64,000 nucleotides of DNA from Gemmatimonadota bacterium. Its GTDB lineage: Bacteria > Gemmatimonadota > Gemmatimonadetes > Longimicrobiales > Gaopeijiaceae. A model generated the notes under the pieces. The model saw only the letters and a program-made list of their open reading frames with translations. It was not told where the DNA came from and ran no database searches. The position numbers and the translations under genes are program-made. Position 1 is the stretch's first letter. Each line of letters starts with the position of its first letter. The stretch is from the NCBI GenBank assembly GCA_022560615.1, contig JADFSR010000015.1, positions 1 to 64,000 of the forward strand, written 5' to 3'. Shown here piece after piece: positions 3,297-51,262 of the stretch.

Positions 3297-4336
3297 GCCA
3301 GCGGATGCCGATGGAGCGCGGAGTAGCGTCCGGTTACGTGATGTTCGAGCTGCCGTTCGATGTCCGCCAGCAGCGACGAGACGCCAAACCGGAACAGGTT
3401 GGGCTGCATCCACCCGGTGCCGAGCTCTTCCTTCATCAGGATCAGCCAGGTGAGCGCATCCTTGGCGGTTCTGATTCCACCAGCGGGCTTGAAGCCGATC
3501 GCGTACCCGGTGCGCTCAGCGTAGGCGCGTACCGCGCGCGCCATCGTCAGGCCCACGGGCAGCGTGGCGTTCACGCTCTCCTTTCCGGTGGACGTCTTCA
3601 CGAAGTCCGCCCCCGCCATCATGCAGACGAGGCTCGCCTTTTGCACGTTGCGGAGCATCGCGAGCTCGCCGGTCGCGAGGATGGTCTTGATGTGGGCGTC
3701 GCCACACGCGTCCCGGAAGGCACGTACTTCGTCGTACAGCGCTTGCCAGTTCCCGGTGAGCACGTGCCCTCGGGTCACGACGATGTCGATCTCCTTCGCT
3801 CCGGCCGCCACGGACGCCTCGATCTCCGCGATACGCTGCGGGAGTGGGTTCAGCCCGTGCGGGAAGCCGGTCGATACGGCGGCCACCGGGATGTCACTTC
3901 CGGCGAGCGCCTCGACGGCGGTCGGGACCATCGCGTGGTAGACACACACCGCGCCCGTGCGCACCGAGTCGTCGCCCATGCCAAGCGCCTGAAGCAGATC
4001 GCGGCGCACCGGCTGTCGCGCTTTCGCGCAGAGTCTGCGTACACGACCGGGCGTGTCGTCACCCGCGAGCGTCGTCAGGTCGATCAACGTGATCGCTTTG
4101 AGCAACCACGCCGCCTGCCACTCCTTCTTCACGCTCCGGCGCGTGCCTAACGTTGCCGCGCGACGTTCGACAGCACTCCGATTCACGCGAATCTCCCGGA
4201 TCCAGTCCAGCTCCAACGGCATTCCCGGGTTCCGTGTTCCTTCGCGTAGGTCTACCGGGCTCACCGAACCCGTGGTCGCCGCATATCTCGCGGCGCGGTC
4301 CCTCGCGATGGAGTCTGTAGTCTTCACGTCTGTCAT
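3293..4336 (-). CDS. deoC: Deoxyribose-phosphate aldolase (long form)
   Basis: Cytosolic class I aldolase that cleaves 2-deoxyribose-5-phosphate to glyceraldehyde-3-phosphate and acetaldehyde. The Schiff-base lysine is in DFVKTSTGKESVNAT and the second active-site lysine in GFKPAGGIRTAKDAL. At 347 residues it has an N-terminal extension of about 80 residues over the short E. coli type, as in the longer DeoC subgroup. It is first in a two-gene operon with the ALDH16-type dehydrogenase, with a 4-bp overlap. That fits deoxyribose catabolism followed by aldehyde oxidation. The 128-bp divergent spacer to the acyltransferase gene would hold its promoter. Confidence 0.93.
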   Translation of the reverse strand: MTDVKTTDSIARDRAARYAATTGSVSPVDLREGTRNPGMPLELDWIREIRVNRSAVERRAATLGTRRSVKKEWQAAWLLKAITLIDLTTLAGDDTPGRVRRLCAKARQPVRRDLLQALGMGDDSVRTGAVCVYHAMVPTAVEALAGSDIPVAAVSTGFPHGLNPLPQRIAEIEASVAAGAKEIDIVVTRGHVLTGNWQALYDEVRAFRDACGDAHIKTILATGELAMLRNVQKASLVCMMAGADFVKTSTGKESVNATLPVGLTMARAVRAYAERTGYAIGFKPAGGIRTAKDALTWLILMKEELGTGWMQPNLFRFGVSSLLADIERQLEHHVTGRYSALHRHPLA

Positions 4337-8012: not shown

Positions 8013-8109
8013 GGGGGCGGAGGGAGACTGGTGTCTTCGGCGGTCTTCAAAACCGTGCGGCCCGGCTAGAACCCGGGTAGGTGGGTTCGATTCCCACACG
8101 TTCCCGCCA
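8013..8109 (+). tRNA. selC: tRNA-Sec (anticodon TCA), CCA encoded
   Basis: A 97-nt molecule with selenocysteine-tRNA features: acceptor arm GGGGGCG paired to CGTTCCC, a six-bp D stem (GGAGAC/GTCTTC) closed by the four-base TGGT loop typical of tRNA-Sec, an anticodon arm GCGGT-CTTCAAA-ACCGT reading UGA, a long variable arm (CCCGG/CCGGG), a T arm GTGGG-TTCGATT-CCCAC, discriminator G and encoded CCA. The extended length and small D loop separate it from suppressor or Trp tRNAs. No selA, selB or selD lies in the window. Confidence 0.92.
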
Positions 8110-21558: not shown

Positions 21559-23736
21559 ATGAAGACCATGATAGCTGAGCCTCGATCCCTCCCAACGCTG
21601 ACTCTCGCGCACTGTTTCGGCGTCGCCTTCGCAGTCCTGATGGCGACGGCAGCGTCCACTTTCGCTCAGGGCCTGCCAGGGACCGAGAACGGCGAGTGGC
21701 GCTATCTGGGCGGCGACGCAGGGCACACGCGCTCCTCGCCGCTGGACCAAATCAACGCCGGCAACTTCGCGGACCTCCAGCAGGCGTGGATATGGAGGGG
21801 CGACAACTTCGGTCCGAACGTCGACTACTTCTCCCGGTCCACGCCGATCTACGTCGACGGAATGCTCTACACGGTGGCCACTCCGCGCCGGCAGGTGGTG
21901 GCGATCGACCCGGCCACGGGCGAGACGCTTTGGACCTTCCGCGAGCCCGAGACCGTCAGGCATTTGCGCTCGCCTAGACAAGCGTACGGGAAAGGCGTCG
22001 CTTACGGCGAGGTGAACGGTCGCGGAGTGATCTACGTCACAACCCCTGCGTTCTTCCTCTGGGCGCTCGACGCCAAGACTGGCCGGCCTCTGGAGAGCTG
22101 GGGCGCGCCGGTGCCGCTGGAAGGCTTCTCCCGAACGGGCGTCGTCGATCTGATTCCGGACCTCGTGGGGGACTGGGGGCGGTGGCAGGACCACCTGACC
22201 GAGGGCGGGACCTACGATCCCGACTTCGGGATCCCGAGGGAGCTCGGTATGGTCACCAGCTCGGCACCGCCGATCGTGGTGAACGGGGTGGTCGTGGTGC
22301 TCGTGGGCCACCAGCCCAGCTACGGCCAGACCCGGATCGAGAACGTTCCGGGCGACATCATGGGGTTCGACGCGGAAACCGGAGAGTTCCTCTGGAAGTT
22401 CCACGTGATCCCCCGACCTGGAGAGTTCGGCCACGAGACGTGGCAGAACGACGCCTGGCAGTGGTCGGGGGACATGTCGTCGTGGGCCCCCGCGTCCGCC
22501 GACCCGGCGCTGGGGCTCGTGTACATCGTGACGAACGCCTCGACGGTCCAGTCGTACACGGGCCATCGGCCGGGCGACAACCTCTTCGGCGGCAGCGTTC
22601 TCGCGCTGGACGTCCGGACGGGCGAGCGGAGGTGGCACTTCCAGATCCACCGGAGCGACCAGTGGAACTACGACCTTCCGACCCCGCCGATGCTGATGGA
22701 TCTGACGGTGGATGGGGAGCGAATCCCCGCGCTGATCCAGAACACGAAGCAAGGCCTCATTTTCGCGTTCAACCGAGAGACCGGCGAGCCGATCTGGCCC
22801 ATCGAGGATCGGCCTGTCATCCAGACGGAGGTCCCCGGCAACTACACGTCGCCCACGCAGCCCTACCCGACCTGGCCGGAGCCTGTGGACCCCATCGTGT
22901 TGAACGGGCTGACGGAGGAGTTCGTCATCGATTACACGCCGGAACTGAAGCGGCAGGCCCTCGACATCCTCAGCCGCTTCCGGATCGGGGGCCTCTACGT
23001 GCCGCCGCTTCCCTTCGACCACATGAACGACGTCTTCAACAATGTCGGCTGCCAAGGAGGGGGGAACGTCATCCCGCATCCGCCGGTCGCTGATCCCAGC
23101 ACGGGGATGATGTATGCGTCGCACAGACGGACGTGCAGCGCTCCCGGGTTCATGCGGCCCACGGACGGCGTGGACGTGGATGAGCCGGAGTATGCCGTGC
23201 CAGGCGCTGACGGTGCTACGCCCAACAGCACGCCTACCACGGGCACCACTGTGTCAGAGTGGCTGCCCGGCGGCGGTGCCCCGGGCCTGCCGACGATCGA
23301 TGGCTTGCGACTTTGGAAGCCCATGAACAACCAGCTCTCCGCCTTCCAGATGAACACCGGCGAGCGGATCTGGTCGACGCCGGTCGGCGAGACTCCCGAG
23401 CGGATCAGGAACCACCCGCTCCTGGCGGGAGTGGACGTTCCCAATGCGGGCGGCGCCGGCTTTGGGTCGGTCCAGATGGTCACGGGCAGCCTGCTGGTTC
23501 AGACCCGGTCGCTCAGTGAGGGCATGGTACAGGTTCGCCCTGACGCCCCCTTGCAGCTCCACGCGCGTGACAAGATGACGGGCGAGATCCTCGCGAGCGT
23601 CGAGCTTCCGGCCCCCGGCCAGTACGGGATGATGACCTACATGCACCAAGGCAAGCAGTACATCGTGGTGCAGATCGGTAGTATCCGAACGGGCTTTCCG
23701 GGCTCGCTGGTGGCGTTCGCGCTGCCGCTGCCGTGA
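21559..23736 (+). CDS. PQQ-dependent quinoprotein dehydrogenase, copy 1
   Basis: A 725-residue exported eight-bladed quinoprotein propeller. A signal peptide ends TAASTFAQG. It then shows PQQ-repeat landmarks (GEWRYLGGDAGHTRSSPLDQIN, VVAIDPATGETLWTF, DIMGFDAETGEFLWKFHVIPRPGEFG) and the YTSPTQPYPTWPEP and TKQGLIFAFNRETGEPIWPIE blocks shared with the other three quinoproteins here. No CxxCH haem site is visible, so electrons must go to a separate cytochrome or quinone. The substrate is unknown. The start ATG follows GAGGAATA. It precedes a molybdenum hydroxylase pair. Confidence 0.85.
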   Translation: MKTMIAEPRSLPTLTLAHCFGVAFAVLMATAASTFAQGLPGTENGEWRYLGGDAGHTRSSPLDQINAGNFADLQQAWIWRGDNFGPNVDYFSRSTPIYVDGMLYTVATPRRQVVAIDPATGETLWTFREPETVRHLRSPRQAYGKGVAYGEVNGRGVIYVTTPAFFLWALDAKTGRPLESWGAPVPLEGFSRTGVVDLIPDLVGDWGRWQDHLTEGGTYDPDFGIPRELGMVTSSAPPIVVNGVVVVLVGHQPSYGQTRIENVPGDIMGFDAETGEFLWKFHVIPRPGEFGHETWQNDAWQWSGDMSSWAPASADPALGLVYIVTNASTVQSYTGHRPGDNLFGGSVLALDVRTGERRWHFQIHRSDQWNYDLPTPPMLMDLTVDGERIPALIQNTKQGLIFAFNRETGEPIWPIEDRPVIQTEVPGNYTSPTQPYPTWPEPVDPIVLNGLTEEFVIDYTPELKRQALDILSRFRIGGLYVPPLPFDHMNDVFNNVGCQGGGNVIPHPPVADPSTGMMYASHRRTCSAPGFMRPTDGVDVDEPEYAVPGADGATPNSTPTTGTTVSEWLPGGGAPGLPTIDGLRLWKPMNNQLSAFQMNTGERIWSTPVGETPERIRNHPLLAGVDVPNAGGAGFGSVQMVTGSLLVQTRSLSEGMVQVRPDAPLQLHARDKMTGEILASVELPAPGQYGMMTYMHQGKQYIVVQIGSIRTGFPGSLVAFALPLP

Positions 23737-40580: not shown

Positions 40581-42683
40581 ATGATCCGGCATCGTCGCCT
40601 CTTCCTTCTACTCAGCGTTGCGGTCGCTCCGGCCTGCTCGACGTCCGCGGAGACCTCGAGGGACTCTTGCGATGAGCCGGCCAACGAGATCGTTGCAGAG
40701 AACTGCCAGCCCGGAGATCCTCCCACCGAGTGGGACATCAACGGCTACGGGGACCCGAGCATCCAGGGCTTCGGCGACGACATCAGCGTGGCGCAGGGCG
40801 AAACGATCAACTTCAAGATCCGGACGGACTCGGACGACTATCGCATCGATATCTACCGAATGGGCTACTACGGCGGGGCGGGAGCTCGACGCGTCGACAC
40901 GATCGAACCCTCGGCCGCGCTACCGCAGGACCAGCCCGACTGTCTGACCGGAGAGGTGCCCGTATTGGATCAGGCAGGGGCGTTGGTGCCTGCGGACGCG
41001 CCCCTCTTCGACTGTGGCAACTGGGCCGTCTCGGCCTCGTGGCAGGCGCCGCTCGACGCCACGTCGGGCATCTACTTCGCTCGATTGGTCCGCCAGGATC
41101 CTGTCGAAGGCGACTACTGGCGGAACGACCAGTTCCGTCCGTCGCAGTTGCCGCCCGGTGCGGAGGACGACCCGCTGTGGGAGGAGTACGCGGCGGTGAT
41201 GGCGAATCCGCTACGTGAGCCCAGGGCGAGTCACATCTATTTCGTTGTTCGCGATGACGATGGAGACTCGGAGATGCTGTTCCAGACCTCGGACGTGACT
41301 TGGCAGGCGTACAACCGGTACGGGGGCCACAGCCTGTATGGACGGCTCAACCCCGAGAGGCTGCGCCTCCACGGCGGCCCGCCACGTGCCCACAAGGTGA
41401 GCTACAATCGCCCGTTCGAGACACGTCACTATCGAGCGGTCAACATGCCGCTCAACTCCGAGTACCCAATGGTCCGGTGGCTCGAGCGTAACGGCTACGA
41501 CGTCAGCTACACGTCGGGCATAGACACCGACCGGCGAGGCGATGAGATCCTCGAGCACAAGATCTTCATGTCGGTGGGTCACGACGAGTACTGGTCGGGT
41601 GAGCAGCGCCGCAACGTTGAGGCCGCCCGACAAGCGGGCGTGCACGTGGCCTTCTTCAGCAGCAACGAGGTGTACTGGAAGGTCCGCTGGGAAGAGAGCA
41701 TCGACGGCAGCGGGCAGCCCTACCGCACGCTGGTCACCTACAAGGAGGTGTCCCGCAAGATGGACCCCGCCGCCGACGTCTGGACGGGACAGTTCCGGGA
41801 CCACAGGCCGTACAACCCGGAAGGGGCGTGGCCGGAAAACGCTCTGACGGGCACCATCTTCACGGTCAACGCCTGGCGTAACGACCCGCTCATCGTGGAC
41901 GCCGAGTTCGCCAGCCTGCGTATCTGGCGCAACACGGAGATCGCGGAACTGCAGCCCGGCGAGCGCTATGTGTCCATCAAGGGCATCCTCGGCCACGAGT
42001 GGGACTCGGACATCGACAATGGCGCTCGCCCACCCGGTCTGTTCCGGATCTCGGCAACGACGGTCGACAACGTACTCTTCTGCCTGCACCCGGGGAGAGG
42101 GTGCGAATCGGGCACGGCGACGCACAACGCGGTGCTGTACCGCCACTCGAGCGGAGCGTTGGTCTTCGGTTCCGGGACGCTTCAGTGGGCCTGGGGGCTG
42201 GATGCGCATCATGACTCCGAGACCGGCGTTCCGCCCGAGCGAGCCAACGGATCGAACACTCGGGTCGGTGTCGACCCAAACGGGCCTGACAAGAATGTTC
42301 AGCAGGCCACGCTCAACCTGTTCGCCGACATGGGCGTTCAGCCGGCGACGATGCAGCCGGATCTGGTCGCGGCCACCGCCTCGACGGATGACACACCTCC
42401 CACCTCGTCCATCGACATGACTTCCGTCGCCGGCTCTGTGGGGAGTGTCATGACGATTCGTGGGTCGGCGTCGGACAGAGGTGGCGGGGTCGTCGCCGCG
42501 GTGGAACTGTCCGTCGACGGTGGAACGAACTGGCACCCTGCGATCGGTCGAACGAGCTGGAGCTACGAGTGGACGCCAGACCGGGCGGGCACGGTCTCGA
42601 TCCTCAGCCGAGCGGTTGACGACAGCGGCAACCTGGGGGACCCGGGTGAAGCTGTGACGGTCAGGGTCGCTGGGGGCGATTAG
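40581..42683 (+). CDS. DMFase-like lipoprotein (N,N-dimethylformamidase beta-subunit domain) with Ig-like tail
   Basis: A 700-residue lipoprotein (VAPACSTS lipobox). After a beta-rich N-terminus (SVAQGETINFKIRTDSDDYRIDIYRMGYYGG), residues about 200-580 match the C-terminal domain of N,N-dimethylformamidase large subunit: LFQTSDVTWQAYNRYGGHSLY, WLERNGYDVSYTSGIDTD, VGHDEYWSGEQRRNVEAARQAG and FFSSNEVYWKVRW. The last 100 residues are an Ig-like sandwich (VAAVELSVDGGTNWHPA). No small DMFase subunit lies nearby, so amidase activity on DMF is not assured. It is convergent with a PQQ gene, overlapping 4 bp. ATG 40548 is an alternative start. Confidence 0.78.
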   Translation: MIRHRRLFLLLSVAVAPACSTSAETSRDSCDEPANEIVAENCQPGDPPTEWDINGYGDPSIQGFGDDISVAQGETINFKIRTDSDDYRIDIYRMGYYGGAGARRVDTIEPSAALPQDQPDCLTGEVPVLDQAGALVPADAPLFDCGNWAVSASWQAPLDATSGIYFARLVRQDPVEGDYWRNDQFRPSQLPPGAEDDPLWEEYAAVMANPLREPRASHIYFVVRDDDGDSEMLFQTSDVTWQAYNRYGGHSLYGRLNPERLRLHGGPPRAHKVSYNRPFETRHYRAVNMPLNSEYPMVRWLERNGYDVSYTSGIDTDRRGDEILEHKIFMSVGHDEYWSGEQRRNVEAARQAGVHVAFFSSNEVYWKVRWEESIDGSGQPYRTLVTYKEVSRKMDPAADVWTGQFRDHRPYNPEGAWPENALTGTIFTVNAWRNDPLIVDAEFASLRIWRNTEIAELQPGERYVSIKGILGHEWDSDIDNGARPPGLFRISATTVDNVLFCLHPGRGCESGTATHNAVLYRHSSGALVFGSGTLQWAWGLDAHHDSETGVPPERANGSNTRVGVDPNGPDKNVQQATLNLFADMGVQPATMQPDLVAATASTDDTPPTSSIDMTSVAGSVGSVMTIRGSASDRGGGVVAAVELSVDGGTNWHPAIGRTSWSYEWTPDRAGTVSILSRAVDDSGNLGDPGEAVTVRVAGGD

Positions 42684-44653
42684 AAACTCGACGTCTCCAG
42701 CGCCAAGGCCACGATGCCTTCTCCGGTTCGGCCGCGACCCACGGCGACCGCCAGGTACTGCCGGCCCTCATACATGTATGTCATTGGGTTGGCGTGTACG
42801 CCCGCCGGTAGCTCGAAGTCCCACAGCACGTCGCCGTTCGACTTGTCGTAGGCGTACAGACGCGGAGGCTCCGATCTCTGCCCGTCGACAGTGGTGAACA
42901 ACAGCGTCTTCGTGAGAAGCGGGAAGCTCTCCCCGCTGCCAAGCCCCCTCCCCAGATCGCCCAGATCGAGGTCGGCAAGAGCCGGGTGATCTCGCGGCCC
43001 GCGGCCGTTCGCGACCTGCCACACGTGCTCGCCAGTGCTCATGTCGATGGCCGTGACTCGACCCCACGGCGGCTTGAAGATCGGTAGGCCATCCACCGTC
43101 GGGGTCCGAGCGCCTCCCCAGAGATAGTCGAAGTCCTCCGACGCCCCGGTGTCCGTCTTCCTCAGCGCGACGACTGTGTAGTCGGTATACGAAGGGATGT
43201 AGAGGTACTGGGTCTCCGGGTCGAACGCGGCCCCGTTCCAGTTCCCGCCGCCCGCCCACCCCGGGTTGACGATCGTGCCCTCGACGGAAGGCGGTGTGTA
43301 CACAGGACCAGTACGATATCGCTGGAAGATTTCGAGCGCCCGTGCCCTAAGGTCCGGCGTGAAGTCGATCAAGTTCTCTTCGAAGGCTCCATTCGGTTCG
43401 AAAGGAGCCGGTTTCGTGGGGATCGGCTGCGTGGGATGGGTCCGCTCACCGGCTACGTCGGACTGCGGGACCGGCTGCTCATCGATGGGCCACACGGGCT
43501 CGCCTGTCACTCGATCGAAGACGAACAGAAACCCCTGCTTCGTGACCTGTGCGACGGCCCTGATCTCCCTGCCGTCCACGGTGATGTCGATCAGGTTCGG
43601 CGCCGCGACCGGGTCGTAATCCCAGATAGAGTGATGGACGAGCTGGTAGTGCCACACCGGCTCTCCAGTCTCGACATTGACCGCCACCAAGCTCGACGCG
43701 TAGAGGTTCGTGCCGAAGCGGTGGCCCCCGTACCAGTTGTGGGAGGGCGACCCCACGGGCAGATACACATAGCCGAGCTCGTCGTCGGCGCTCATCGGCG
43801 TCCAGACGTTGGTCGCTCCGGCGGCGCGCCAGGAGTCGTCCTCCCAGGTGTCGTTCCCGAACTCGCCCGGCTGAGGGATCGTGTGGAAGATCCAGAGCAG
43901 CTCGCCGGTCCGTACGTCATAGCCCCGGACGTGTCCGGGTGGGACGTCGCGGGTCTGGGGCGTGTCCCGAATCGCGGAGCCAACGACCACCACGTCACGG
44001 CTGATCGTCACGGGTGAGTTGACCCCGTAGCCCAGTATGAAGGTCTGGCGATCTTCGACGTCGACACCGAGTCCCTGGGTCAGGTCCACCCTTCCGGCAT
44101 TCCCGAAAGCGGGATCCGGCTCCCCTGTTTCTACATCGAGCGAGATCAGGAACGCGTCGTTGGATCCGATGAGAAGTCGCTTCCTCTCCCCATCAGTCCA
44201 ATAGGAGAGGCCGCGCACGATGAAGCCCAGGTTGACCGGCCGACCCGACTCCCAGGTCTTCGGATCGTAGGACCAAAGGGTCCGGCCGGTTCCTGGGTGA
44301 ATCGCGGCGATCTGGCCCAGCGAGGTGATGGTGTAGAGCGTTCCGTCCACCAGGAGCGGCGTCGCCTCATACCAGAGGGCCCCGCCCATCCGGCGCGCTT
44401 CCTCATCGCGCTCTTTGAGCTCTTCGTCGATGGACTCCCAGTACCAGGCCACCTGAAGCTCTGCGACGTTGCTACGATTGATCTGACTGAGGGGAGCGTA
44501 GTGTGACGCGGCTGCGTCGCCCTGGTGCACGCGCCACTCGCTGTACTGAGCGCCGGGGGCCATGCCCGGTTCGGGCTGCGCGGGCGGAGCGCAAGAGGCG
44601 AGCGATAAGACGCAGACCAGGGAGAGCAGACTTCCCACACGAGTGCTCGACAT
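42680..44653 (-). CDS. PQQ-dependent quinoprotein lipoprotein, copy 2
   Basis: A 657-residue PQQ propeller with a lipoprotein signal (LVCVLSLASCAPP). Landmarks are SEWRVHQGDAAASHYAPLSQIN, IAAIHPGTGRTLWSYDP, GHVRGYDVRTGELLWIFHTI, QLVHHSIWDYDPVAAPNLID, TKQGFLFVFDRVTGEPVWPID and GWAGGGNWNGAAFDPE. It is about 40-45 percent like copies 3 and 4 by eye. No CxxCH is seen. ATG 44653 follows GGAG by eight bases; ATG 44674 and 44704 are alternatives. It is the only quinoprotein on the minus strand and is divergent from copy 3, sharing a 168-bp promoter spacer. Confidence 0.87.
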   Translation of the reverse strand: MSSTRVGSLLSLVCVLSLASCAPPAQPEPGMAPGAQYSEWRVHQGDAAASHYAPLSQINRSNVAELQVAWYWESIDEELKERDEEARRMGGALWYEATPLLVDGTLYTITSLGQIAAIHPGTGRTLWSYDPKTWESGRPVNLGFIVRGLSYWTDGERKRLLIGSNDAFLISLDVETGEPDPAFGNAGRVDLTQGLGVDVEDRQTFILGYGVNSPVTISRDVVVVGSAIRDTPQTRDVPPGHVRGYDVRTGELLWIFHTIPQPGEFGNDTWEDDSWRAAGATNVWTPMSADDELGYVYLPVGSPSHNWYGGHRFGTNLYASSLVAVNVETGEPVWHYQLVHHSIWDYDPVAAPNLIDITVDGREIRAVAQVTKQGFLFVFDRVTGEPVWPIDEQPVPQSDVAGERTHPTQPIPTKPAPFEPNGAFEENLIDFTPDLRARALEIFQRYRTGPVYTPPSVEGTIVNPGWAGGGNWNGAAFDPETQYLYIPSYTDYTVVALRKTDTGASEDFDYLWGGARTPTVDGLPIFKPPWGRVTAIDMSTGEHVWQVANGRGPRDHPALADLDLGDLGRGLGSGESFPLLTKTLLFTTVDGQRSEPPRLYAYDKSNGDVLWDFELPAGVHANPMTYMYEGRQYLAVAVGRGRTGEGIVALALETSSF

Positions 44654-44821
44654 TGCCAGGCTCCATCGCAACATGATGCCAGGGCGGCCGTTCGACCGGC
44701 ACAAGATGGGCGGACATCGTAGGGGGCACCATGTGCCCGCTTACGATCCCTCGCCTCGCCGCCCTCCTGCGTCGTAGGTTGCTCGTGACTGCTCTACTCA
44801 CGTTGCCGGCGAGGAGAGATC

Positions 44822-46801
44822 ATGCGGCCGTCCCTGGCTGTACGACCAACTGAGACCTCGAAGAGTTCATCGAAGCTTGGCGTTGCTCCCGGCTGGCTTC
44901 GGGTGATGCTCGCATTGGGCCTCTTCTGTTGGAGCCCGGCGGGGAGCCCGGCGGCTGCGCAGTCAGGCGCGGCGGACGGTCAGTGGCGGAGCTACGGAGG
45001 GGATCCAGGACACACCAAGTACTCTGCCCTCGATCAGATCAACGAGGACAACGTCGGGAGCCTGGAGGTCGCCTGGACCTGGACGTCGGTGGACGAGGGG
45101 CTCAGAGCCCGTAATGAGGTGATGCGTGTACGTGGAGCTTTCCAGACCTACGCCTACGAGGTCACGCCTCTTTATGTGAACGGTGTGCTGTACACCACCA
45201 CCTCTCTCGGTCAAATCGCCGCGATCGATCCCGGAACGGGCGAGACGCTGTGGAGCTACGATCCGGCTCTGTACCTGGAAGGCCGCCCGGCCGTGCATGG
45301 GTTCATGACCCGCGGGCTCGCCTATTGGACGGACGGCGCGGAGGAGCGGCTCATCTATGCGGCGGGGCGAGTGTACCTCGTCTCGATCGATGCGAAGACC
45401 GGGGAGCCCGATCTCACGTTCGGTCGGGGCGGACGAGTCGACCTCAAGGAAGGTCTCGGAAGAACGATCGACGCGCGCCGCTACACGGTGAGCTCACCTC
45501 CGTTGGTGGTCGGCGACGTCGTAGTGGTCGGCTCCGCAATGACCGAGGGCACCGGGTACCAGGAGGCGCCGCCCGGGCACGTGCGGGGGTACGACGTGAG
45601 GACAGGCAAAATGAAGTGGATCTTCCACACCATTCCCCAGATGGGCGAGCTTGGATACGAGACCTGGGAAGACGATTCGTGGAGGCTCTCCGGAGGTGCC
45701 AACGTCTGGACCCTGATGAGCGCCGACGAGGAGCTCGGCTACGTCTACCTCCCGGTCGGATCGCCGGTCACGGACTTCTACGGCGGACATCGACTCGGCG
45801 ACAATCTGTTCGCCAACTCCCTGGTATGCCTCGACGCCGAAACCGGTGAACGCGTGTGGCACTTCCAATTCGTCCACCACACGGTGTGGGACTACGATCC
45901 TCCGGCGGCACCCAACCTCATCGACATCACCGTCGACGGTCGCCGGATCGAAGCCGTCGCTCAGATCACCAAACAGGGCTTCACGTTCGTTTTCGATCGG
46001 GCGACGGGCGAGCCGGTCTGGCCGATCGAGGAGCGACCCGTTCCACAGAGCACTCTGGTAGGCGAGCGGACATCGCCTACGCAGCCATATCCCACCAAGC
46101 CCCCACTCTTCCTCACGAACGGAGCGACCGAGGACGACGTCATCGACTTCACTCCCGAGTTGAGAGCGGAGGGGCTAGCCATCTTTCGTGAGCACAATGC
46201 CGGACCCCTCTATACGCCCCTGACGCCGGGGACCAACATCGTGCGACCCGGCTGGAGTGGCGGCGCCAACTGGTGGGGTGCGGCGTTCGACCCCGACACT
46301 GGGCGACTCTATGTGCCTAGCTGGGCTCACTTCTCGCTCGTCCGGATGGAGCCCGGGGATCCCGAGCGCTCCGACATGATGATTCGGCCTCAGGTACGGG
46401 ACCTGGTCGGCCCGCGGGGCCTTCCACTCTTCAAGCCCCCATACTCGCAGCTCACGGCCTTCGACATGAACGCGGGCGAGAAGCTCTGGAGCGTCCCCGT
46501 CGGGGACGGACCTCGGGACCATGAAGCCCTGCGGCACCTGCAGCTACCACGGCTCGGTAGCTTTCAGAAGCTCGGGGGACCGCTTCTGACGAAGACCCTT
46601 CTGTTCATCGGACAAGGGATGAATACGAACCGGATCGGGGCATACGACAAGGAGACCGGCGAGGAGCTGTGGAGAATGGACGTGGGGGGCCAGTTCCACG
46701 CCGCCCCAATCACATACTTGCTCGACGGTAAGCAATACATCGTGCTTGCCGTCGGCGGGAGCGGCGAGCCGGAGCGGCTCGTTGCGCTGGCGTTGCGTTG
46801 A
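44822..46801 (+). CDS. PQQ-dependent quinoprotein dehydrogenase, copy 3
   Basis: A 659-residue secreted PQQ propeller, first gene of the Rid-containing operon. GAGGAGAG precedes ATG 44822 and the signal peptide ends SPAAAQS. Motifs are GQWRSYGGDPGHTKYSALDQIN, IAAIDPGTGETLWSYDP, HVRGYDVRTGKMKWIFHTIP, FVHHTVWDYDPPAAPNLIDITVDGRR, TKQGFTFVFDRATGEPVWPIE and GWSGGANWWGAAFDPD. No haem motif. Close to copy 4 (same length, same block order), so the two probably arose by duplication around the Rid gene. Confidence 0.87.
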   Translation: MRPSLAVRPTETSKSSSKLGVAPGWLRVMLALGLFCWSPAGSPAAAQSGAADGQWRSYGGDPGHTKYSALDQINEDNVGSLEVAWTWTSVDEGLRARNEVMRVRGAFQTYAYEVTPLYVNGVLYTTTSLGQIAAIDPGTGETLWSYDPALYLEGRPAVHGFMTRGLAYWTDGAEERLIYAAGRVYLVSIDAKTGEPDLTFGRGGRVDLKEGLGRTIDARRYTVSSPPLVVGDVVVVGSAMTEGTGYQEAPPGHVRGYDVRTGKMKWIFHTIPQMGELGYETWEDDSWRLSGGANVWTLMSADEELGYVYLPVGSPVTDFYGGHRLGDNLFANSLVCLDAETGERVWHFQFVHHTVWDYDPPAAPNLIDITVDGRRIEAVAQITKQGFTFVFDRATGEPVWPIEERPVPQSTLVGERTSPTQPYPTKPPLFLTNGATEDDVIDFTPELRAEGLAIFREHNAGPLYTPLTPGTNIVRPGWSGGANWWGAAFDPDTGRLYVPSWAHFSLVRMEPGDPERSDMMIRPQVRDLVGPRGLPLFKPPYSQLTAFDMNAGEKLWSVPVGDGPRDHEALRHLQLPRLGSFQKLGGPLLTKTLLFIGQGMNTNRIGAYDKETGEELWRMDVGGQFHAAPITYLLDGKQYIVLAVGGSGEPERLVALALR

Positions 46802-46882
46802 GCCGGAGGTCATCCACCAGCCGGACCTCGGGCCCTCGAGTCAGACCGTGTCACAGCGCTTGAGCGAAGAGGGGGACACGAC

Positions 46883-48118
46883 ATGAAGTTCAACATCACG
46901 CCGGCAGCGACGGCGCTGATGATGGCTATCGTTTTTGGACCAGTCGGCTGTCGCCCAGTGGGTGCCCAAGAGCTCGAGAGGGAGTTCATCGACCCGGCCG
47001 GCGGGTTCACCCAGGTCGTGACCGTGTCGGATCATGGTGTCAAGACGATCTACGTGTCAGGACAGGTCGGCCGTGGTGACGATCTCCGAGCGCATGTCGA
47101 GACGGCGTTTCAGTCGGTTGTGCGACGTCTCGAGAGCGCCGGCGCCTCGGCCTCAGACGTCGTGAAGATCCGGATCTTCGTGAAGGACTTCGACCCAGAG
47201 GAGTATTCGATCATCCGCGAGGCACGACTCCGGACGTTCAATGAGGACTCGTGGCCGGCCAGCACGATGGTAGGCGTCCAGTCATTGTTCCTCGAGCAGT
47301 TCCGTGTCGAGATCGAGGCCGTCGCGGTCATCGCGGATCCTGAAGTCCCGGGAGCGACCGTCACGATCGAACGCGTCGGACCCTCGCGTGGCTTCAGCCA
47401 GTCCGTGGTGGTCACGGCCAACGGGATCAAGACGATCTACGTCTCGGGTCAGGTCGGCCAAGGCGATGGACTGGCCGAGCAGTCGACGTCGGTCTTGGCG
47501 GCTGTGGCCCGGCGACTGGAGGCATCAGGTGCCACTCTCGACGATCTCGTCAAGATCGTCACGTACATCGCCGAGTATGCGCCGGAGGACCGCCGCACGT
47601 TCAGTGAGGCGAGAACGCAGGCACTGGGTAGCGAAAATCTACCAGCGAGTACGTTGCTCGGGGTGCAGTCACTCGTTACCGATCAATATGAGATCGAGAT
47701 CGACGCCGTGGCGGTCGTGAGCGATGGCGGGGGTGGCGAGGCCGACACGGAGTTCATCGGTCCCACATCAGGCTTCACACAGGTCGTCACCACGCAGGGG
47801 AGCGGTGCGAAGACGATCTATGTATCAGGTCAAGTCGGGCGCGCAGGTGAGAGCCTCGAGACCCAAGCGGATCAGGCCTACGCCAACCTGAAGCGGCGGC
47901 TCGAAGCGGCTGGTGCGACCACAGCGGATCTGGTGCAGCTCAACATCTACATGGCCGATTATCATCCCCAAGATGCGGCGGTGCTCGCGGTCGCCCGCCG
48001 GAATAATGGATTTTCCGACGAGAATCTCCCGGCCACGACGCTGATCGGCGTCGAATCGCTCTACTCGGACACCGCGCTCATCGAGATCGAGGGCGTGGCG
48101 GTCGTGCAGGGCCGTTAG
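46883..48118 (+). CDS. Secreted protein with three tandem Rid (YjgF) domains
   Basis: A 411-residue protein: a signal peptide ending VGAQE, then three Rid domains of about 120 residues each (roughly 30-150, 160-275, 290-411). Each has GFxQxVVxxxxGxKTIYVSGQVGxG, a central VKI(R/V)xF/YxxD/E and a final xASTxxGVxSLxxxxxxxEIxAVAV. The Arg that binds the imine carboxylate in RidA (AR before the V-x-V strand) is replaced by ST or TT in all three repeats, so it is not a classical 2-iminobutanoate deaminase. Rid proteins are normally small, cytosolic and trimeric, and a single exported chain carrying three domains could fold as a built-in trimer. It lies 82 bp after and 12 bp before quinoprotein genes. 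Confidence 0.88.
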   Translation: MKFNITPAATALMMAIVFGPVGCRPVGAQELEREFIDPAGGFTQVVTVSDHGVKTIYVSGQVGRGDDLRAHVETAFQSVVRRLESAGASASDVVKIRIFVKDFDPEEYSIIREARLRTFNEDSWPASTMVGVQSLFLEQFRVEIEAVAVIADPEVPGATVTIERVGPSRGFSQSVVVTANGIKTIYVSGQVGQGDGLAEQSTSVLAAVARRLEASGATLDDLVKIVTYIAEYAPEDRRTFSEARTQALGSENLPASTLLGVQSLVTDQYEIEIDAVAVVSDGGGGEADTEFIGPTSGFTQVVTTQGSGAKTIYVSGQVGRAGESLETQADQAYANLKRRLEAAGATTADLVQLNIYMADYHPQDAAVLAVARRNNGFSDENLPATTLIGVESLYSDTALIEIEGVAVVQGR

Positions 48119-48129
48119 GAGGAGCAGTC

Positions 48130-50109
48130 GTGAATCGGTTCACGTTGTGCACACTCTTCATGGCCTTGGGCCTCTTCACGGGGTCAGGCCTCGCACAGCA
48201 GGGCGCGACGGGCGCAGAGTGGCGGAGCTACGGGGGAGACATCGGGAGCACCAAGTACTCGCCACTCGACCAGATCAACCGGGACAACCTCGGAGACCTT
48301 CGGATCGCTTGGCAGTGGGAGTCGGTCGACGGGCGATTCGATCTGGACCGACTCAGGGAGGACTATCCGAACCTCCAGGTCCCCAACGACATCGCGGCTG
48401 TCCGCATCTCGAATCTCAAGGCGACGCCTTTGATGGTGGGCGGCGTCCTCTACATCTCCACCCCCTTGTCCCAAATCGCGGCAATCGAAGCTGCCACCGG
48501 TGAGACGCTCTGGGTTCACGATCCGCGGAGCTATGTGTCGGGCATTCCAATCATGCTGCTCGGCTTCAGCAACCGTGGGCTAGCCTACTGGACCGACGGA
48601 GAGCGGGAGCGGCTGATTCTGGGGACCGGAGACGCTTACTTGATCGCCGTCGACGCCAGGAGCGGGGATGCAGTTCCCGGCTTCGGCGATGACGGTCGGG
48701 TCGACCTGATGGACGGCATACCGAGGGCCCGCAGGGCTCCACCCCCCATGAATTACTCGATCACGTCGGCCCCGGTCGTGTGCGGGGACGTGGTCATCGT
48801 AGGATCGGCCATCTCCGACCAACCCCGGTTCCGGGAGGCTCCACCCGGGCACGTCCGCGGCTTCGACGCCCGCACCGGCGAGCTGCTCTGGACGTTCCAC
48901 ACCATCCCCCAACCTGGAGAGTTCGGTCACGAAACGTGGGAGGACGGCTCGTGGAGGTACACGGGGAACACCAACGTTTGGACGCTCATGAGCGCCGATG
49001 AGGAGCTCGGCTACGTCTACCTCCCGGTCGGCAACGCGACGAACGATCACTATGGCGGGCACCGGCCAGGCAACCTTCTCTTCGCGAACAGCCTCGTCGC
49101 CCTGGAATGTTCGACCGGAAGGCGCGTCTGGCACTACCAGCTCGTACATCACGATCTGTGGGACTATGATCCGCCGGCCGCTCCCAACTTGATCGACATC
49201 ACGGTGGACGGGAGAGCGATCAAGGCTGTCGCGCAGGTGACCAAACATGCCTTCACGTTCGTCTTCGATCGCGAGACCGGCGAGCCCGTCTGGCCAATCG
49301 AGGAACGACCGGTTCCCGCCTCCGATGTGCCGGGTGAGTGGACGTCCCCAACACAACCCTTCCCGACGAAGCCCCCTCCATTCGATCGGCAGGACGCCAC
49401 CATCGACAATCTCATCGACTTCACGCCCGAGCTGCGAGCCGAGGCGATCGAGATCCTGGGGCAGTATCGAAGCGGCCCCCTCTTCACGCCGCCTTCGCTC
49501 ATCGACGCCGGGCCGGACGGGACCCGAGGCACGATCGCGCTTCCAGGCTACACGGGCGGCGCGAACTGGAGCGGCGCGGCCGTAGATCCGGAAACGGGCA
49601 TTCTGTATGTGTCCTCGGCGACGCAGCCGATCATCCCCCGCCTGGTGGAGCTCGGGCCGGAGCGCTCCACCCTTCGGTACTCGCGTGGCCCGATGCGCGC
49701 GCCGCCGGGCCCGGACGGTCTGCCACTCTTCAAGGGGCCGTACGGGAGGATCACCGCGATCGACCTCAACGAAGGAGAGATCGTCTGGCAGGAATCCAAC
49801 GGGCCCGGGCCGGCCAGCATCCGGGATCATCCACGGCTGGAGGGTCTGGAGTTGCCAGCGCTCGGTGGTGGCCGGGACTTCTTGTTGGTTACCGAGACAC
49901 TCCTGTTCTCAGGCCAGCAACGGCCGAACGCGGAGGGGTCTTACGTACTGACTGCGCGTGACAAGGCGACCGGCGAGGTCCTCGGGGAGGTCCCGTTGCC
50001 CGGGAGAGCGATCGGCGCCCCCATGAGCTACATGGTCGAAGGCACGCAGTACATCGCCCTCACCGTCCAGGGTAATCCACCCCGACTCGTTGCATTGGCC
50101 GTGCGTTGA
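48130..50109 (+). CDS. PQQ-dependent quinoprotein dehydrogenase, copy 4
   Basis: A 659-residue secreted quinoprotein. GTG 48130 follows AGGAGG; the signal ends TGSGLAQQ. Family blocks are EWRSYGGDIGSTKYSPLDQIN, IAAIEAATGETLWVHDP, GHVRGFDARTGELLWTFHTI, QLVHHDLWDYDPPAAPNLID, TKHAFTFVFDRETGEPVWPIE and GYTGGANWSGAAVDPETG. Compared with copy 3, the KQG in the conserved TKQG turn is KHA, and an insert (RFDLDRLREDYPNLQVPNDIAAVR) sits near residue 75. Third in the operon, 31 bp before the NHL lipoprotein. Confidence 0.87.
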   Translation: MNRFTLCTLFMALGLFTGSGLAQQGATGAEWRSYGGDIGSTKYSPLDQINRDNLGDLRIAWQWESVDGRFDLDRLREDYPNLQVPNDIAAVRISNLKATPLMVGGVLYISTPLSQIAAIEAATGETLWVHDPRSYVSGIPIMLLGFSNRGLAYWTDGERERLILGTGDAYLIAVDARSGDAVPGFGDDGRVDLMDGIPRARRAPPPMNYSITSAPVVCGDVVIVGSAISDQPRFREAPPGHVRGFDARTGELLWTFHTIPQPGEFGHETWEDGSWRYTGNTNVWTLMSADEELGYVYLPVGNATNDHYGGHRPGNLLFANSLVALECSTGRRVWHYQLVHHDLWDYDPPAAPNLIDITVDGRAIKAVAQVTKHAFTFVFDRETGEPVWPIEERPVPASDVPGEWTSPTQPFPTKPPPFDRQDATIDNLIDFTPELRAEAIEILGQYRSGPLFTPPSLIDAGPDGTRGTIALPGYTGGANWSGAAVDPETGILYVSSATQPIIPRLVELGPERSTLRYSRGPMRAPPGPDGLPLFKGPYGRITAIDLNEGEIVWQESNGPGPASIRDHPRLEGLELPALGGGRDFLLVTETLLFSGQQRPNAEGSYVLTARDKATGEVLGEVPLPGRAIGAPMSYMVEGTQYIALTVQGNPPRLVALAVR

Positions 50110-50140
50110 GTGCTCTACGCGGCCGTCGACCACCGAGACC

Positions 50141-51262
50141 ATGAGAAATCGAATGAAACTCTTCAGCGCTGCAGCCTTGCTTTTCATTACCGTCGCTTGC
50201 GACTCTCAGACGCCTCAGCCGGCACCGGAGCCGACATCGGGCACACTGCCCGAGTGGGAAGTGGACCCGACGTGGCCACCGACGCTGCCCAACGACTGGA
50301 TCCTCGGCGACATCAGAGGGCTCTTCGTTGATGAAAACGACCACCTCTGGGTAGTTCACATGCCGTCGAGCCTGACCCGTCAGGAGATCGGAGCCGCACA
50401 GGATCCACCGATTGCGGATTGTTGTTTTCCCGCGCCCCCCGTTCTCGAACTGGATCCCGAGGGCAACGTCTTGCAAGCCTGGGGTGGGCCGGGCGAGGGG
50501 TATCACTGGTTCGACCAGGAGCACGGGATCTATATCGATCACAACGGGTTCGTCTGGCTCGGCACGAGTAATGGATTCCACGTGATGAAGTTCACGAAGG
50601 ACGGCAACCACGTTCTCACCATCGGTGAGCCTGGCGTGAACAAGGGCAGCGACGATCCGACTCATCTGGGCGGCCCGGCGAATTTCTTCGTGGAGCCCAG
50701 TACGAACGAACTCTTCATCGCGGATGGATACCGCAACCGGCGCGTGGTGGTGTTCGATGCGGCGACCGGCGAATACCGGCGTCATTGGGGTGCGTACGGC
50801 AAGCCACCGGACGACACCTACCGATATGAGTATCCAGTCAGGCCAGACGACCCGCCACAGCAATACTCGACCGTCCATGGCATCGTCGGCTCGAAGGACG
50901 GCCTGGTCTATGTGTCCGACCGCCGCGGAAACCGCATTCAAGTCTTCCGCCAGAACGGCGCATATCTGATGGAGCGGTTCGTCCTTCCAGAGACCCGCGG
51001 ATCGGGGACTGGCTTCAGCCTTGGGCTGTCGCGGGATCCCGAACAGAGCCTCCTCTATCTGATCGATGGCACGAACGAACGTGTCTGGATGCTGCGGCGC
51101 TCCGACCTGGAGATCCTTGGCAGGTTTGGCAGGCCCGGGCGCCAGGCGGGCGAGTTCATCCGAGCGCACATGGTGGTGCTGGACTCCCGGGGCTACCTCT
51201 ACACCGGAGAGGCGGGGAACGGTAGACGGATGCAACGGTTCAAGCTGAAGGCTGCCAAGTAG
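50141..51262 (+). CDS. NHL-repeat six-bladed propeller lipoprotein
   Basis: A 373-residue lipoprotein (FITVACDSQ lipobox), last gene of the quinoprotein/Rid operon. NHL/peptidylamidoglycolate-lyase-like blades are DIRGLFVDENDHLWVVH, LELDPEGNVLQAWGGPGEGY, HGIYIDHNGFVWLGTSNG, VEPSTNELFIADGYRNRRVVVFDAATGEYRRHWGAYG, VYVSDRRGNRIQVFRQNG and MVVLDSRGYLYTGEAGNGRRMQRF. A CC pair (ADCCFPAP) is conserved-looking. It may bind a metal, as such propellers often do, but catalytic function is not assigned. ATG 50153 is an alternative start. Confidence 0.8.
   Translation: MRNRMKLFSAAALLFITVACDSQTPQPAPEPTSGTLPEWEVDPTWPPTLPNDWILGDIRGLFVDENDHLWVVHMPSSLTRQEIGAAQDPPIADCCFPAPPVLELDPEGNVLQAWGGPGEGYHWFDQEHGIYIDHNGFVWLGTSNGFHVMKFTKDGNHVLTIGEPGVNKGSDDPTHLGGPANFFVEPSTNELFIADGYRNRRVVVFDAATGEYRRHWGAYGKPPDDTYRYEYPVRPDDPPQQYSTVHGIVGSKDGLVYVSDRRGNRIQVFRQNGAYLMERFVLPETRGSGTGFSLGLSRDPEQSLLYLIDGTNERVWMLRRSDLEILGRFGRPGRQAGEFIRAHMVVLDSRGYLYTGEAGNGRRMQRFKLKAAK

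Follow-up and report, generated by a model that had tools for sequence, protein, structure and literature searches.

The window analysed here, a stretch of 64,000 nucleotides from a Gemmatimonadota bacterium (assembly GCA_022560615.1, contig JADFSR010000015.1, positions 1 to 64,000), contains four adjoining genes on its forward strand. The first is PQQ_A (44822-46801, 659 amino acids), a quinoprotein predicted to use pyrroloquinoline quinone (PQQ) that matches PF01011 (E=1.1e-195). It is followed by Rid3 (46883-48118, 411 amino acids), in which three separate stretches match the Rid family PF01042 (E=9.8e-51), by a second quinoprotein with a GTG start, PQQ_B (48130-50109, 659 amino acids; PF01011, E=5.2e-191), and by an NHL-repeat protein with an ATG start (50141-51262, 373 amino acids; PF01436, E=2e-6). 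These Pfam matches and the open reading frame calls agree with a first-pass annotation that had placed two PQQ enzymes, a triple-Rid protein and an NHL gene side by side. The intervals between the genes are 81, 11 and 31 nucleotides, of which the annotation had the third right and the first two as 82 and 12, and from this spacing the four genes may be co-transcribed. The N-termini of all four proteins look by eye like export signals, as had also been proposed, and that of the NHL protein includes a lipobox-like motif (ITVAC followed by D). Comparison with relatives identifies Rid3 as the recurring and unusual member of a shuffled cluster, in which the presence of a quinoprotein nearby persists.

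Rid3 carries three tandem PF01042 domains in one chain. This triple-Rid layout has already been described as 3x-RidA, for example in EF_0115 of Enterococcus faecalis (Niehaus et al., 2015, PMC4433059). Rid3 shares with these proteins the three domains per chain, presumed to form a covalent trimer, but differs in its apparent export, its quinoprotein neighbours and the absence of Arg105 from all three domains. Arg105 is reported to be the determinant of imine deaminase activity in Rid proteins (PMC5619798; PMC4433059). With E. coli RidA (b4243) as the reference, the Arg105 position is occupied by Ser, Ser and Thr in domains 1 to 3, and the same Ser/Ser/Thr replacement extends to 9/9 domains across three full-length homologues. 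A role for Rid3 as an imine deaminase was rejected on this ground. Glu120 is kept in 9/9 domains and Phe stands at the Tyr17 position in as many; all nine retain the Rid core together with the SGQ motif, and an invariant Lys precedes the SGQ strand in every Rid3 domain. The ratio of nonsynonymous to synonymous substitution rates (Ka/Ks) is 0.33 against the homologue at locus L031 and 0.41 against that at L032, the latter containing ambiguous bases, and these values point to a real gene under purifying selection. The partner PQQ_A evolves more slowly (0.14 versus 0.33).

The AlphaFold model of Rid3 has a predicted local distance difference test score (pLDDT) of 61 and a predicted template modelling score (pTM) of 0.55. 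Its best full-length Foldseek matches are chorismatases and cyanuric acid hydrolases, followed by Rid proteins. Those enzymes also have three YjgF-like units per chain (PMC3758960), but they form distinct sequence families, and Rid3 still scores as PF01042. Arg-bearing Rid proteins are encoded at other loci of the host genome, one of them apparently exported. A second exported 3x-Rid family, of about 376 amino acids, is found in other genera of the same bacterial family (L134 5780-6907; L136 5247-6377; L137 5834-6979; L139 4973-6100), whose first two domains have the Arg and whose third lacks it. No quinoprotein was detected within several kilobases of its genes, and a large TonB-receptor-like gene lies upstream in L136 and L137.

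How far is the arrangement around Rid3 conserved? A pattern scan of 84,980 species for Rid3 returned three loci, all in Gemmatimonadota (L031, L032 and L033), and a search of 395 genomes of the phylum yielded the identical set, with all other matches at E>=5e-16. Only a few genomes, all from one family, contain full-length Rid3. L031, from a congener, matches the window DNA across PQQ_A (92%) and Rid3 (85%) but no further than the stop codon of Rid3, beyond which it carries convergent xanthine-dehydrogenase-type genes. L032, from another genus, is to be compared with the other side of the window cluster, where a third quinoprotein gene, PQQ_0 (42680-44704, reverse strand; PF01011, E=1.9e-188), stands head-to-head with PQQ_A. 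Similarity there extends over PQQ_0 and the divergent promoter region, at 83.7% DNA identity and up to window position 44833, at the beginning of PQQ_A, and resumes at Rid3. An amidohydrolase takes the slot of PQQ_A in L032 and a different NHL gene, also a propeller, lies downstream; a PETase-like hydrolase (3444-4313; PF12740, E=1e-72) is encoded between two quinoprotein genes of this locus. L033 (G381:C49) is 98.4% identical to the window over 8.4 kb, from inside Rid3 downstream, yet belongs to a genome of another genus; in the region 1-730 it joins unrelated sequence at the border between Rid3 domains 2 and 3, leaving Rid3 partial. It was rejected as independent support, since near-identical DNA in another genus with an unrelated sequence joined inside Rid3 likely reflects a mis-binned or misassembled contig, recent transfer being the other explanation to be named.

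The full order PQQ-Rid3-PQQ-NHL was found in no other genome by either search, and no quinoprotein was found in the 1.5-kb flanks of 26 distant Rid loci of the phylum. The gene-order comparison suggested in the first-pass annotation thus returned an arrangement essentially confined to this genome. The conserved, undescribed system that had been proposed reduces to the linkage of Rid3 to PQQ_A in L031 and to PQQ_0 in L032.

The usual substrates of PQQ enzymes are alcohols, sugars and aldehydes. Lupanine hydroxylase is a PQQ enzyme known to act next to nitrogen. The known types of quinoprotein that oxidise amines have as cofactor a quinone derived from the protein itself. In alignments with the membrane quinoprotein glucose dehydrogenase of E. 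coli, Gcd (b0124), a relative with the same PF01011 fold and about 31% identity, Asp466, Asp468, Trp404, Lys493 and Arg266 are kept in PQQ_A, PQQ_B and PQQ_0, among them the catalytic Asp and the Trp and Lys of the PQQ site. All three are soluble relatives that differ from Gcd in lacking its N-terminal membrane domain, His262 and Asn607, and PQQ_B also has Lys at the position of Glu217. A quinohaemoprotein identity was ruled out, there being no CxxCH motif in any of the three. Two curated families were likewise rejected, TIGR03074 (glucose/quinate/shikimate membrane dehydrogenase) with 409 and 383 bits against a cut-off of 832.65 and the membrane domain missing, and TIGR04528 (acido-empty-quinoprotein group A) with 246 and 231 bits against 650; the scores for TIGR03075 also fell far under its curated cut-off. 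No amine-specific feature was found in the three sequences, and a literature search on PQQ enzymes acting on amines gave nothing usable. The earlier proposal that these enzymes oxidise amines meets Gcd-like active sites with nothing in them that points to amines. Judged from sequence, they would act on alcohols, sugars or aldehydes, as established for the family, with amines possible but less likely.

The paralogue tree unites PQQ_A and PQQ_0 as sisters (99/99) and places PQQ_B in a separate clade; PQQ_A and PQQ_B are therefore not products of a local duplication. The PQQ_0 orthologue (79% amino acid identity) is the one that adjoins Rid3 in L032. No clear orthologue of PQQ_B was found in genomes G117 or G377, where the best matches reach 56-60%.

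The NHL protein had been taken for either a third propeller enzyme or a scaffold. Its structural model (pLDDT 68) has the PAL structure 3fvz as top Foldseek match (E=1.7e-17), and the profile match to 3fvz is also strong (E=2.9e-18). Residues H128, Y197, H246, R261 and H343 are invariant across 31 homologues, down to 54% identity. The first four align in 3fvz to the metal His, Tyr and Arg positions of PAL; H343 lies in the blade where the third His is expected and is placed by blade register only. The PAL site consists of three zinc His, Tyr654, Arg706 and Arg533. At the Arg533 position, matched by eye, the NHL protein has Met74 and nearly all homologues have Met or Leu, and substrate recognition should therefore differ from that of PAL. 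The scaffold alternative was rejected in view of the PAL-like fold and the invariant His/Tyr/Arg site, and the enzyme alternative held in a PAL-like form: sequence and model identify a PAL-like six-bladed propeller that is a predicted zinc lyase. PAL itself is a zinc-dependent C-N lyase (PMC6529398). The NHL protein shares with it the fold, the strong profile match, three His, the Tyr and one Arg, and differs in being a bacterial lipoprotein, in having no PHM partner and in the Met or Leu at the Arg533 position. An invariant vicinal Cys pair (C94-C95) is present in the protein and its 31 homologues.

PAL-like NHL proteins occur in 182/395 genomes of the phylum, and the closest relatives of the one described here have mostly unrelated neighbour genes. 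Since the family is widespread and the neighbours of its members differ, the position of the NHL gene in the cluster is probably incidental. At another locus, adjacent convergent quinoprotein and PAL-like NHL genes are kept in two species of the genus (L125 8003-11684; L126 7089-10878).

The host genome is a metagenome-assembled genome of 4.5 Mb and 99% completeness, and it contains about 30 quinoprotein loci when PQQ_A is used as query. A presence/absence survey per genome found PF01011 proteins in 307/390 genomes of the phylum. PqqC scored above cut-off in 44/395 phylum genomes; the host gave no PqqC match above the family cut-off in that search, and no PqqE match above cut-off was found in the host or three relatives. 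The host does encode a PqqU-like TonB-dependent receptor (G000:C35:33945-35918) that aligns with the whole of E. coli PqqU at 32% identity (E=2.4e-73), the runner-up match reaching E=1.6e-19. This fits published work, in which PqqU was widespread among Gemmatimonadetes and the majority of its carriers did not synthesise PQQ (PMC12124388). With neither PqqC nor PqqE above cut-off and a PqqU-like transporter present, PQQ is therefore probably scavenged.

Other features of the window complete the picture. A fourth quinoprotein is matched by profile at 21559-23736. The start of PQQ_0 is likely an ATG at 44653, which leaves a divergent intergenic region at 44654-44821; no promoter-like matches were found in it, and the promoter and terminator scan as a whole gave promoter matches at about chance level. 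The N-terminus of PQQ_0 is lipoprotein-like, with an LASC motif. The neighbouring genes that the first-pass annotation had listed, two amidases, a DMFase-like protein and a gene of the ornithine-cyclodeaminase family, are all found. ARAGORN called a tRNA-Sec (anticodon TCA) at 8013-8109.

Taken as a whole, the evidence leads us to favour, with moderate confidence, an evolutionarily unstable, locally assembled cluster of catabolic genes for exported proteins, in a member of the Gemmatimonadota that scavenges PQQ, over a conserved pathway that oxidises and then deaminates. PQQ would enter through the PqqU-like outer-membrane transporter, and in the periplasm each quinoprotein would pass hydride from a predicted alcohol, sugar or aldehyde-hydrate substrate onto its PQQ, from which electrons would continue to the respiratory chain. 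The ligand of Rid3, in this reading a covalent pseudo-trimer, would most likely be an uncharged compound of carbonyl or enol type, turned over by hydrolysis or tautomerisation, and not an alpha-imino acid. The PAL-like lipoprotein would cleave carbinolamide-type C-N bonds independently, being the product of a separate, widespread gene that came to lie downstream by chance. Several observations weigh against this interpretation. In each of the two further species whose context is usable, a quinoprotein lies within one or two genes of Rid3, closer company than chance neighbours would be expected to keep. Ser is reported to stand in for Arg in about 10% of the RidA subfamily, members with no known activity (PMC4433059). 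The fold comparisons depend on models whose confidence is low to moderate (pLDDT 61 for Rid3 and 68 for the NHL protein).

It is possible, though we think it the less likely case, that the neighbourhood is accidental, a chance adjacency in a quinoprotein-rich genome of four products that do not act together. The roughly 30 quinoprotein loci of the host would make such encounters easy, the content upstream and downstream differs in each relative, PQQ_B stems from another paralogue clade than PQQ_A and PQQ_0, and the NHL family is found everywhere without PQQ neighbours. Against this, the linkages of PQQ_A and of PQQ_0 to Rid3 persist across species and genus, and the convergent quinoprotein/NHL pair of L125 and L126 shows a comparable association at another locus conserved within the genus.

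What might Rid3 do beside partners that change? In E. coli, RidA is able to function as a redox-regulated chaperone, and the ridA gene is annotated in these words. Rid3 could accordingly be a periplasmic holdase or chaperone for neighbouring exported proteins, with swappable partners that need no common chemistry; its constancy while a neighbour switches from quinoprotein to amidohydrolase would fit, as would its faster evolution relative to PQQ_A. We regard this as unlikely, as every domain compared has kept its Rid core, with Glu120 and the SGQ motif, which suggests a retained ligand site. Alternatively, and with somewhat lower probability, Rid3 may be a hydrolase of another class built on a concatenated YjgF scaffold, like chorismatase and cyanuric acid hydrolase. 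The best full-length Foldseek matches and the invariant Lys before each SGQ strand favour this, and AtzD is thought to derive from concatenated YjgF monomers (PMC3758960). The Rid3 model has a pLDDT of only 61, however, and by Pfam its sequence is nearer to Rid than to either hydrolase family.

The model of the first-pass annotation has amines oxidised by the quinoproteins in the periplasm, with Rid3 then hydrolysing the resulting imines or enamines; we consider it very improbable. In its favour are the Rid3-quinoprotein linkage kept in L031 and L032 and the precedent of lupanine hydroxylase. In other bacteria, moreover, Rid genes cluster with oxidase-type genes, but there FAD-dependent amine oxidases adjoin Arg-bearing Rids, whereas PQQ dehydrogenases adjoin an Arg-less Rid here (PMC4433059). 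The amidohydrolase in the PQQ_A slot of L032, the resemblance of the quinoprotein active sites to glucose dehydrogenase and the Arg-bearing Rids available elsewhere in the host all count against it, and an exported oxidise-then-deaminate route is unsupported because relatives do not keep the gene order and every Rid domain is without Arg105. A bolder scheme is a long shot: Rid3 would be the first of a class of Rid proteins that are exported, trimeric within a single chain and no longer hydrolyse imines, and would be a constant accessory to an interchangeable periplasmic quinoprotein or amidohydrolase. Joined by the PAL-like zinc lyase, it would take part in oxidative N-dealkylation, with an aldehyde or carbinolamide produced by the quinoprotein, C-N cleavage carried out by the PAL-like enzyme, and the released carbonyl or enol species passed to Rid3.

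The pathway claim in the form proposed is not worth pursuing. The neighbourhood does reveal a lineage that has PQQ-enzyme genes by the dozen and in which PQQ synthesis is undetected, and it draws attention to PAL-like propellers, many of which go unrecognised, filed merely as 'NHL repeat' proteins. Rid3, if functional, would offer a tractable exported Rid protein in which all three domains are without the deaminase Arg, from a part of the family that has no known activity.

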